A stretch of DNA of 64,000 nucleotides from Hyunsoonleella jejuensis (GTDB lineage Bacteria; Bacteroidota; Bacteroidia; Flavobacteriales; Flavobacteriaceae). A model generated the notes under the pieces. It did not search any database. It was not told the DNA's origin and saw nothing but the letters and a program-made list of their open reading frames with translations. Every line of letters starts with the position of its first letter. The stretch's first letter is position 1. Location of the stretch: positions 682,001 through 746,000 of the forward strand of contig NZ_FOFN01000001.1 of NCBI RefSeq assembly GCF_900111025.1, written 5' to 3'. Below are positions 8,869 to 10,816 of the stretch, piece by piece. A program made the position numbers and the translations under genes.

Positions 8869-8903
8869 TACTGAGTACTGAATACTGAATACTGAATACT
8901 GAA
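8869..8903 (+). repeat. Tandem 7-bp repeat in atpD-atpC gap
   Basis: Five head-to-tail copies of a 7-base unit: TACTGAG once, then TACTGAA four times. They end five bases before the atpC ATG. A cruder array of GCAGT/GGCAGT words precedes them (8838-8858). The number of copies could vary by slippage and would alter the atpC leader. Confidence 0.85.
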
Positions 8904-9184: not shown

Positions 9185-9204
9185 GAAGATTAAAACTAGA
9201 TATA

Positions 9205-9238
9205 AAAACCCCGTAACAACTTTGTTATGGGGTTTTTA
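9205..9238 (+). terminator. Terminator of atpD-atpC
   Basis: AAAACCCCGTAACAA and TTGTTATGGGGTTTTT form a strong stem with a CTT loop and end in a T run, about 20 bases after the atpC stop. Confidence 0.85.
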
Positions 9239-9267
9239 ATTTTAACTAACTAAAATGAAAATAAAGT

Positions 9268-9369
9268 TTAAAAAATAATAACCAGTAGGTTTATCGCAAT
9301 GGTTGCAACGACTAAGATGGCCAACCCAATAGCGAAAGATGTATCCAGGACAGTTTCTGTAGTTTTCAT
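9268..9369 (-). CDS. 33-residue membrane microprotein
   Basis: The minus strand encodes ATG through TAA with the peptide MKTTETVLDTSFAIGLAILV followed by VATIAINLLVIIF. One hydrophobic helix covers residues 13-33 after a short polar N terminus. It fills the space between the atpC terminator and the small-RNA-like units. Its leader contains GAGAGAAATTC (minus strand, 9393-9403), which resembles the GAGAATTA boxes in those units. The composition is not random for this AT-rich region: a Thr/Glu/Asp head and a clean helix. No known family is claimed. It may be a membrane-acting regulatory peptide controlled together with the upstream elements. Confidence 0.5.
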   Translation of the reverse strand: MKTTETVLDTSFAIGLAILVVATIAINLLVIIF

Positions 9370-9403
9370 AACGCGTTAATAATTAAGTTAGAATTTCTCT
9401 CGT

Positions 9404-9478
9404 AATTAAAAAAGAAACTCTGCGCTATTACTACACAGAGTTTCTAGTAATTCTCTCTCAAAAGAATTGATTAATAGC
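9404..9478 (-). ncRNA. Candidate small RNA, unit A
   Basis: On the minus strand, a -7-like TACATTTA (9484-9491) is followed by the box GAGAGAGAATTA (9448-9459). A hairpin follows with a perfect 10-bp stem, AGAAACTCTG/CAGAGTTTCT, and 13-base loop (9413-9445), ending in TTTTTAATT. The hairpin plus T run is terminator-like, so the predicted transcript is about 70-75 bases. No open reading frame fits inside. A diverged copy (unit B) lies 160 bases upstream with the same element order and spacing. The transcript ends are inferred. Confidence 0.45.
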
Positions 9479-9483
9479 TTAGG

Positions 9484-9534
9484 TAAATGTATAGTGATGC
9501 GATGAAAAAAAAAATACGCAGTTGTACGTATTTT
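9484..9534 (-). promoter_or_regulatory. Palindromic operator and promoter, unit A
   Basis: The inverted repeat AAAATACG..CGTATTTT (9511-9534, perfect 8-bp arms) lies exactly 19 bases upstream, in minus-strand sense, of the -7-like box TACATTTA (9484-9491). Unit B has the identical spacing. The site probably stands in for a -33 element and may bind the adjacent response regulator. Confidence 0.5.
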
Positions 9535-9569
9535 TTAAGAAGACAAAATTAAAATTAACCTATTATAAA

Positions 9570-9634
9570 GGCGAAAGCCCTAGAATATAAAACTCTAGGA
9601 CTTTCAATAATTCTCCCTAAGAACTAATTAATAG
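9570..9634 (-). ncRNA. Candidate small RNA, unit B
   Basis: The element order matches unit A: the -7-like TACCTTTA (9640-9647), the box GGGAGAATTA (9608-9617), then a 12-bp hairpin GAAAGTCCTAGA/TCTAGGGCTTTC (9573-9605). As minus-strand RNA the one irregular pair is a G-U wobble. As plus-strand RNA it would be a C-A mismatch, so the minus strand is the likely transcript. The following T run is weak (GCCTTTATAATA), so the transcript might continue into unit A. Ends are inferred. Confidence 0.42.
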
Positions 9635-9639
9635 CATTG

Positions 9640-9690
9640 TAAAGGTAATTGATAAAGCCGTAACACAAAATACGTACTTGTACGTATTTT
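9640..9690 (-). promoter_or_regulatory. Palindromic operator and promoter, unit B
   Basis: A perfect inverted repeat, AAAATACGTAC, TT, GTACGTATTTT (9667-9690), overlaps the stop codon of the response-regulator gene. The inner heptamers TACGTAC/GTACGTA separated by two bases give the 7-2-7 geometry known for NarL-family regulators. The -7-like box TACCTTTA (9640-9647) is 19 bases further on. Confidence 0.55.
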
Positions 9691-10318
9691 ATAGAAAGGG
9701 CTTGTTTAAATTGGCCCAAATTGATAGTGAGGTTGGTTTTTTGTCTAACCCTAGTTTAGAAACAATATTACTCCTATGCTTATCAACAGTTCTTGGTGAT
9801 ATAGATAATTCTTTTGCAATTTCTTGAGACGTTTTATTTTCAGATATTAGTGTAACTATTTTAAGTTCAGATTTTGTTAATAGTTCTAGCTCTTTTGGCT
9901 TTTTTTGGCTGCTGTGCTTCAAATAAGTTGCTATTTCTTCACTAAAGTAGGATTGGTTGTTTTCAACATGAGCAATACAATTTTCTATCTCTTCAATTGC
10001 AAATTCTTTAAGAATATAACCATAAACACCGTATTCTAAGGCTTTGTCATAAAGATCTTCTTCTTTGTCAAATGTTATTAAAATAATTTTTGTATCAAGA
10101 TTATTTTTTTGAACGTCTTCAGCAATTTCAAGACCTGTTTTATATGGCATTCTAATATCTAGAATAGCAATCTTAGGTTTTAGTTTTACTATAAGATTAT
10201 AAGCACTTTTACCATCTTCAGCGCTTCCTAAAATGTTAAATCCTTTGGATGTTAAAAAGTCTGTTAAACCACGAAGCATTAGCGGGTGATCATCCGCTAT
10301 TACAATAGATGTATGCAT
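9689..10318 (-). CDS. NarL/FixJ-family response regulator (orphan)
   Basis: The 209-residue protein has an N-terminal receiver domain with the acidic pair D9-D10, phosphoacceptor D54, T82 and K104. A C-terminal LuxR-type helix-turn-helix covers about residues 140-205 (TKSELKIVTLISENKTSQEI, then SPRTVDKHRSNIVSKLG). All residues for phosphotransfer are intact, so it should be a functional DNA-binding switch, but no histidine kinase is adjacent. Directly downstream are two palindrome-promoter-hairpin units whose operators have the geometry expected for this family. I infer, without proof, that it controls them. Confidence 0.93.
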   Translation of the reverse strand: MHTSIVIADDHPLMLRGLTDFLTSKGFNILGSAEDGKSAYNLIVKLKPKIAILDIRMPYKTGLEIAEDVQKNNLDTKIILITFDKEEDLYDKALEYGVYGYILKEFAIEEIENCIAHVENNQSYFSEEIATYLKHSSQKKPKELELLTKSELKIVTLISENKTSQEIAKELSISPRTVDKHRSNIVSKLGLDKKPTSLSIWANLNKPFL

Positions 10319-10372
10319 TTAAGCTAGGAATAATTGCTATTAATTTTATCGATACATAAGTTTGGTAAAAAC

Positions 10373-10816
10373 TTACAATTTTAAATATAGATATTTTTTC
10401 TCATAATCAATTATGGCTTTCCCTTTTTTTAAAGTGTCTGCACCAATGATACCATCAACGGGTTTGGAATTATGATTTACCAAAGCCGTATTCACGTGTG
10501 TCATATTAAACAAGACCAAAACAACTTTTTTTTGTTGCCACTTGCCTATCTTAACTTTGTTTTTTTTAGACATTTTAGTTGCCATATCTATTGCACCTGC
10601 GCCTGCAGCCAAAATGCTAGAGTCTTTAACCTTTAAATTAAAAGTGGTAATAGCCTCAAAACCTACGCAAGAACTAGACGCACCCGTATCTAAGATAAAA
10701 CTCCCCTTAACGCCATTTATCGTAGCTTTCATTTCAAAGTGATTCGTTTTTGTGAGATGAAGCTTTATTTTGGTGTATTTTTTTTCAAGGAGAAAATTTT
10801 GAAGAGAAATATCCAT
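10373..10816 (-). CDS. Retropepsin-like aspartic protease
   Basis: A 147-residue single-domain protein with the clan AA signature FILDTGASSSCVG (catalytic D43). A second conserved block, VDGIIGADTLKKGKAIIDY (about 118-136), corresponds to the hydrophobic-Gly motif near the C terminus of retropepsins. It has no signal peptide, so it is likely cytoplasmic and active as a homodimer, as retropepsins are. The substrate is unknown. It is divergent from tatD. A second DTGA protein in this window is the RimK-linked protease at 46320. Confidence 0.85.
   Translation of the reverse strand: MDISLQNFLLEKKYTKIKLHLTKTNHFEMKATINGVKGSFILDTGASSSCVGFEAITTFNLKVKDSSILAAGAGAIDMATKMSKKNKVKIGKWQQKKVVLVLFNMTHVNTALVNHNSKPVDGIIGADTLKKGKAIIDYEKKYLYLKL

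Follow-up and report, generated by a model that had tools for sequence, protein, structure and literature searches.

What lies between an orphan NarL-type response regulator of Hyunsoonleella jejuensis and the membrane peptide gene that follows it is the question raised by a 64,000-nucleotide stretch of this genome (contig NZ_FOFN01000001.1, positions 682,001 to 746,000, here called the window). On the minus strand of the window, as read from the sequence, the regulator gene (209 amino acids, 9689-10318; Response_reg, PF00072, E 1.3e-24; GerE, PF00196, E 1.1e-12) is followed by two related units, A and B, and then by the gene for a 33-residue membrane peptide. Each unit looks like a gene for a small RNA of about 70 nucleotides with its own promoter and its own intrinsic terminator. 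Judging from comparison among relatives, units A and B are probably sibling small RNAs that are activated by the regulator and limit its translation, in a negative feedback resembling that of Qrr and LuxO. The unit labels follow the order of transcription, with A adjoining the regulator and B the peptide; those of the original prediction, made from the letters of the window, were apparently reversed.

Two small-RNA-like units behind the regulator

The two units share one plan. Unit A begins with the candidate activator palindrome AAAATACGTACAAGTACGTATTTT (9667-9690, minus strand), which overlaps the regulator stop codon and is centred at -43.5 from the inferred RNA start, and includes the -7-like box TACCTTTA (9640-9647, minus strand), at -12 to -5 relative to the first G of the core. 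The predicted small RNA A, of about 69 nucleotides (9567-9635, minus strand; 5' end GCUAUUAAUUAGUUCUUAGGGAGAAUUA), would contain a first hairpin at 9626-9608 and a terminator stem-loop at about 9606-9572. Unit B comprises the candidate activator palindrome AAAATACGTACAACTGCGTATTTT (9511-9534, minus strand; centre -44.5), the -7-like box TACATTTA (9484-9491, minus strand) and the predicted small RNA B of about 71 nucleotides (9408-9478, minus strand; 5' end GCUAUUAAUCAAUUCUUUUGAGAGAGAAUUA), with a first hairpin at 9468-9449 and a terminator at 9445-9413 followed by a U run. The distance from palindrome to box is exactly 19 bases in both units, and GAGAATTA and then a hairpin lie downstream in both; direct reading of the sequence confirms the order claimed originally, namely palindrome, 19 bases, TACnTTTA, core and hairpin in two minus-strand units. 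According to fold prediction, the GAGAATTA box corresponds largely to the 3' arm of a conserved small hairpin. Two details of the earlier description are correct once its labels are exchanged: the T run is found at the end of the hairpin of the peptide-side unit B, and the perfect stem with one G-U pair belongs to the regulator-side unit A, whose terminator stem is unbroken and fits that description over 12 pairs (GAAAGUCCUAGA/UCUAGGGCUUUC), the full predicted stem having 15 pairs with two further G-U pairs. Against shuffled sequences, the two 75-nucleotide stretches reach fold z values of -4.55 and -4.32, and none of 200 shuffles was equally good. In the 3.48-Mb genome, TACGTANNNNTACGTA has a single exact occurrence, in unit A, and the unit B palindrome is among six further sites with one mismatch; since this total of 7 sites compares with 10 for the reversed control, the pattern is not enriched genome-wide and it is its position, not its number, that is remarkable.

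The arrangement is conserved within the genus. Regulator orthologues with 79-90% identity were present in all 11 other genus genomes searched, and core A with palindrome and box was found downstream of the orthologous regulator in 12 of the 12 genus genomes read, with spacers and terminator sequence that differ. The palindrome deviates in three loci, overlapping the coding end in L022 and carrying one mismatch in L021 and L023. Core B is present in 11 of the 12 genus stretches, the copies of L019, L020 and L022 being diverged, and the B-like match of G004 (L021) is located several hundred bases farther on. The original prediction had staked itself on the presence of the unit beside homologous regulators, and no absence of core A was seen there.

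Units from a wider range were collected by a pattern scan of GTDB genomes, which gave at least 114 stretches, 108 of which yielded the 134 listed units on which the following counts are based. Five loci (L080, L093, L100, L155 and L167) held no unit passing the filter, which required 90 nucleotides upstream and 140 downstream, and L179, a contig of a Prochloron metagenome-assembled genome whose core match has neither palindrome nor -7 box, was excluded from the unit, energy, class and peptide counts. All other stretches come under names of Flavobacteriaceae genera or carry the label Flavobacteriaceae, Flavobacteriales or Bacteroidia. Alignment of the listed units at the core G gives the profile TAnnTTTAC from -12 to -4. 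The sigma-A box of Flavobacterium psychrophilum is TAnnTTTG at -12 to -5, as given in an excerpt of PMC9723704. Because near-invariance begins at the core G and the -7-like box occupies the position of the sigma-A box, the core G is most likely the 5' end of the small RNA. Among the matches listed for which the palindrome could be located, its centre lies mostly at -43.5 in the response regulator class and at -43 in the PAS class, near -42.5 to -43.5 in the TACC class and at about -41.5 in the CGG class. The loop, which the search pattern left free, reads AGGGAG in 105 of the 134 units. The terminator is also outside the search pattern: its energy reaches z < -2 against base shuffles in 132 of 134 units, and at least 5 T in 8 bases are found near its end in 87. 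Among 45 unit-A sequences two-sided changes occur at 14 of 14 terminator pairs (72 cells, as compared to 18 in shuffles). The small hairpin is almost invariant and therefore provides no information on its pairing.

Palindrome classes and distribution of the family

The palindrome differs among units, and its class, assigned by loose regular expressions on the DNA, agrees with that of the regulator, assigned from the protein. Among the matches listed, 75 of 87 TACGTA units lie behind an ADDHP-type response regulator, with 10 lacking an open reading frame (ORF) in the available DNA and 2 placed behind another ORF, whereas 25 of 28 TACTCAA units lie behind a PAS-LuxR gene, the other 3 having no ORF. 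All three CGG-CCG units follow a third response regulator, which in L139 is paired with a TPR kinase. The six TACC-GGTA units comprise one behind a kinase-response regulator pair, three without an ORF and two behind an unrelated ORF. Ten of the 134 units fall in no palindrome class and have a degenerate TACGTA profile; six of these lie behind an ADDHP-type response regulator and one behind a PAS-LuxR gene. Thus, for the TACGTA, TACTCAA and CGG-CCG units with an identified regulator among the matches listed, palindrome and regulator are in agreement without exception (103 of 103 units, 86 loci). In L065 the neighbour is a TPR-LytTR gene, with no clear palindrome. Going by these neighbours, PAS-LuxR proteins and other response regulators appear to own copies of the same RNA behind palindromes of their own, so that several signals may feed into one RNA.

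The window's own genome provides an example. A third core copy (G000:C7:12763-12790) is located downstream of a PAS_3+GerE (LuxR-type) gene; its palindrome, AATACTCAATTTGAGTATT, is a different one, and it has a terminator of its own. Three similar core copies, candidate sibling RNA genes, are therefore present in this genome. Relatives of the regulator in other genera of the family, four of five of which were read, include L024, L026 and L028, with diverged arrays that keep GCTATTAAT in most units and a similar peptide after each array, and L025, with a unit and no convincing peptide; L027 and L032 were left out of the reading of other genera and paralogues, as no regulator ORF was found there. 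Palindromes were also observed apart from the RNA. A second NarL-type regulator (AEDHQ), present in L034 and L035, is followed immediately after its stop codon by a TACCC...GGGTA palindrome with no RNA core, and in G009 (L063) a core with a palindrome of the TACCC...GGGTA type lies at a different place from the AEDHQ regulator. A response regulator gene elsewhere in the window's genome (G000:C4:633014-633859; L007, L008) has one-mismatch TACGTA palindromes on both sides, and no RNA core was found in the 140 bases read at each.

A search with a covariance model, which the original prediction had proposed, was run on the core. Among 60 relatives (E <=0.1), 18 genomes matched, consisting of 12 of 12 from the genus and 6 of 25 from other members of the family, with none of 23 from other families of the order. 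In a family-wide sample (E <=0.01) the core was found in 78 of 299 genomes and 65 of 236 genera, and in a class-wide sample (E <=0.001) in 1 of 295, the window's own. Absences in searches covering more than 40 genomes are soft, since weak matches are lost to the strict filters applied there. One genome holds five tandem core matches (G201:C1:1618451-1619082). At the gathering score, Rfam 15 gave only tRNA matches in the window and in 14 related loci, and at E <=10 every match in 9200-9720 was well below the gathering score of its family; no title or abstract opening among the papers listed from an open-access library described such an RNA family. The statement that no described family has this layout has thus held up within these sources, and the circuit appears to be previously undescribed.

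Complementarity with the regulator leader

A possible target of the RNA is found just upstream of the regulator itself. The leader contains ATTAATAGC (10336-10344, minus strand), the perfect complement of the first nine bases of the RNA 5' end, GCUAUUAAU, and, nearer the start codon, TTCCTAG (10324-10330, minus strand), a weak variant, below the strict motif, of the UCCCU or CUCUC sequence complementary to the RNA loop. Regulator leaders often hold ATTAATAGC and then UCCCU or CUCUC nearer the start codon. Motifs were counted within 35 nucleotides of the start codon and compared by Fisher tests, with 324 of 508 other ORFs, those of 220 amino acids or longer, kept as control leaders. TAATAGC occurs in 31 of 65 regulator leaders, as compared to 0 of 21 PAS, 0 of 46 protease and 1 of 324 other leaders, and the loop complement in 38 of 65, 11 of 21, 3 of 46 and 6 of 324, respectively. 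For loop motifs in the same sense, the counts are 0 of 65, 0 of 21, 1 of 46 and 5 of 324. In a slightly wider form, both motifs together are present in 28 of 65 regulator leaders and in none of the 324 others. The mean duplex energy with RNA A is -14.2 kcal/mol for regulator leaders and -8.6 kcal/mol for other leaders. When each leader was paired with its own or with swapped RNAs, own B RNAs were slightly better (7 of 300 swaps equally good); with hairpins alone, 6 of 300 swaps were equally good for the B type and 139 of 300 for the A type. This complementarity and the copies owned by other regulators are what the comparison adds to the original prediction. One PAS-LuxR leader (L106) holds CATTCTCCCTAAGAATC, in which 14 bases are complementary to the RNA hairpin.

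From these data a circuit can be proposed. The NarL-type regulator would bind the TACGTAnnnnTACGTA palindrome centred at about -43 and activate a sigma-A-like promoter, and each unit would give an RNA of about 70 nucleotides that starts at the G of GCUAUUAAU and contains a small purine-loop hairpin and an intrinsic terminator. The 5' end of this RNA may pair with AUUAAUAGC, and its loop or hairpin with UCCCU or CUCUC, just before the regulator start codon; such pairing would limit translation of the regulator and generate a negative feedback, as Qrr RNAs do on luxO. Read-through of the last unit would express the membrane peptide under the same regulator, and the further copies owned by PAS-LuxR and other response regulators would bring several signals into one RNA. 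The RNA may have other targets as well. Within the genus, TAATAGC, TCCCT and ATG in this order were found at 46 places, as compared to 16 in the control. Of these, 30 were read: six are regulator leaders, the other 24 fall inside long frames, opposite them or ahead of short frames, and a seventh place (G008) is a regulator leader by position; no other read place led an ORF of at least 100 amino acids outside another long frame. Two further target searches gave no conserved target and were set aside: BCTAATTAATAGC was found at 11 places in 12 genomes (4 in the control), four of which share one context, by eye apparently the 3' end of an opposite-strand gene, and CTCCCTAAGAAD at 6 places (5 in the control), one being an RNA copy itself.

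Several observations weigh against this circuit. A reversed core also favours regulator leaders (-11.2 vs -8.3), so that base composition explains part of the energy difference, and own A RNAs show no advantage over swapped ones (112 of 300 swaps equally good), a test that has little power as the A cores are nearly identical. TAATAGC is missing from 34 of the 65 regulator leaders and from all 21 PAS leaders, and the latter are barely above other leaders in duplex energy (area under the curve, 0.57). The two-part site recurs within one coding frame in three genomes. At the promoter, the -7-like box ends in A where the sigma-A box has G, its position being otherwise equal. Paralogous regulators (L029-L031, 40-42% identical) have a TACGTA-like palindrome after the stop codon without an RNA core. 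As for the sampling, the pattern used to gather the named loci prescribes most of the core, and the species are related, so that counts are not independent and the tests overstate independence. Finally, the leader sites are ordered 5'-AUUAAUAGC...UCCCU-3', an order in which no single RNA could contact both in one continuous antiparallel helix; either two RNA molecules would bind the leader or the two contacts would alternate.

The order of the sites also bears on a different explanation, in which the units are still small-RNA genes but a second protein binds DNA at GCTATTAAT (+1) and, in the opposite orientation, at ATTAATAGC of the leader; no RNA-RNA feedback would then run through this stretch. 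Such a site would fit the order as well as the position of both copies at or near inferred transcription starts. It would leave unexplained the enrichment of the loop complement in regulator and PAS-LuxR leaders (38/65 and 11/21, as compared to 6/324 in others) and the AGGGAG loop seen in 105 of 134 listed units at a place that the search pattern left free, and we consider it unlikely.

The linked peptide and comparison with known systems

The unit array ends in the peptide gene (9268-9369, minus strand), whose 33-residue product is predicted to form a single helix and belongs to a conserved family. In ten sequences of the genus, pairwise differences by codon position amount to 491/170/700, and 409 of 936 changed codons are synonymous, as compared to about 26% for random single-base changes; among 28 sequences, L16, I24 and N27 are nearly invariant. 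The relatives of the peptide have no common Pfam or NCBIfam family, and isolated weak matches vary by member. Among the matches listed, a hydrophobic ORF of 28-42 codons follows the unit within 600 nucleotides in 54 of 62 TACGTA loci and in 6 of 10 loci without a palindrome class, in 1 of 5 TACC loci (an unlike ORF), and in 0 of 3 CGG and 0 of 28 TACTCAA (PAS-LuxR) loci; on the opposite strand, such an ORF was found in none of 126 unit checks. The peptide family is thus tied to the ADDHP-type (TACGTA-class) regulator. No promoter was seen by eye between the last unit and the peptide, so read-through of the last unit is its likely source. The idea that the regulator may drive two RNAs of 65-75 nucleotides, and perhaps the peptide, gains support from the linkage of palindrome and regulator, from terminator covariation at 14 of 14 pairs and from the linkage of the peptide.

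The same lack of a promoter before a peptide that follows the unit in 54 of 62 loci, together with poor T runs in some B terminators, would fit units that are not free RNAs but leader or attenuator elements of longer transcripts, at the 3' end of the regulator mRNA and in the 5' leader of the peptide mRNA. This is quite unlikely, as the units have their own palindrome and -7 box, TACTCAA-class copies occur without the peptide in 28 of 28 loci, and one genome carries five copies in tandem. The AGGGA loop of the RNAs might also serve to titrate an RNA-binding protein, in the manner of CsrB and RsmY with CsrA, and a LuxR-type response regulator with sibling RNAs, one with GGA in its loop, does recall GacA/Rsm. 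A CsrA model matched none of 21 genomes (12 of the genus) while matching 3 of 14 control genomes, GGA occurs once in the hairpin of A and not in that of B, and the leader complementarity would have no explanation, all of which makes titration very unlikely. A type I toxin-antitoxin pair, suggested by a short hydrophobic peptide (the toxin) adjoining small RNAs (the antitoxin), is hardly credible, since the RNAs lie on the same strand as the peptide, TACTCAA-class copies are accompanied by it in 0 of 28 loci, and the peptide leader is not complementary to the RNA cores (z medians of +0.10 and -0.11 for 80 ORFs including alternative starts, only 3 of 80 below z -2 in each case).

On the other side of the regulator, its upstream neighbour encodes a retropepsin-like aspartic protease (10373-10816, minus strand; PF13650, E 4.1e-11), which adjoins the regulator in related loci as well. 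In L038, a CHAT-domain protein (PF12770; L038:2-364) ends immediately upstream of this protease, and the counterpart of that position in the window is a TatD-type gene on the opposite strand. A strong hairpin flanked by T or A runs (9205-9240) separates the peptide from the convergent ATP synthase epsilon gene and resembles, by eye, a two-way terminator common to both. The plus-strand interval between the two ATP synthase genes contains short ATTCAGT-like repeats (about 8872-8900).

The proposed feedback, in which the RNAs act on the leader of their own regulator, has to be placed among known small-RNA systems. An Hfq model matched none of the 21 genomes (12 of the genus), as compared to 5 of 14 control genomes. 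Within the genus, the 12 genomes searched thus gave no match to either the Hfq or the CsrA model. A bolder reading, which we hold tentatively and with some doubt, is that of an RNA currency common to much of one bacterial family, apparently without Csr or Hfq, in which private copies directly behind unrelated regulators would provide a self-limiting and cross-talking feedback through two contacts, 5' end and loop, with the leaders of their activators; the co-regulated peptide would be a second output and may sense or quench a signal upstream of the orphan regulator. The family provides a defined RNA together with candidates for its activators and its target, and its genetics can readily be tested in many named cultured species; the linked peptide family has no Pfam or NCBIfam entry.

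Among the systems to be compared, GacA is a LuxR-type response regulator, its system reportedly acts exclusively through RsmY and RsmZ, and Rsm RNAs work by titration of CsrA. The Streptococcus csRNAs are controlled by the response regulator CiaR, all copies by one regulator. Rfam includes a Qrr family, and LuxO differs from NarL-type regulators in regulator type and in its sigma-54 dependence. The lack of CsrA in 21 of 21 genomes places the present units outside Csr/Rsm, and the lack of an Rfam match together with that of Hfq in the same genomes places them outside Qrr.

The units resemble RsmY and RsmZ under GacA in the combination of a response regulator with sibling small RNAs (RsmY and GacA appear in a portion of PMC4211561), and differ in the missing CsrA match, in having at most one GGA in the conserved hairpin and in the evidence pointing to pairing with an mRNA leader. 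The csRNAs of Streptococcus are likewise siblings, two to six in number and distal or in tandem according to Table 1 of PMC4211561, while the copies described here have no Rfam match and appear to answer to several regulators. Closer in phylogeny, Rfp18 of F. psychrophilum is, in an excerpt of PMC9723704, a small RNA conserved in Flavobacterium, a genus of the Flavobacteriaceae; it would be set apart by its description there, where pairing is predicted for a third stem-loop and metalloprotease mRNAs are affected. The nearest parallel is offered by Vibrio, where phosphorylated LuxO activates the Qrr RNAs, which repress luxO, and Qrr action on aphA requires Hfq (both from part of PMC3262071). 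As in Qrr/LuxO (parts of PMC3262071 and PMC4211561), a response regulator is here proposed to activate sibling small RNAs that would repress its own mRNA. Unlike Qrr, the present RNAs have no Rfam match, the regulator is of the NarL type, the copies lie directly behind it, and several unrelated regulators own copies. If true, the sharing of one RNA by several regulators would represent an unusual wiring of signals.

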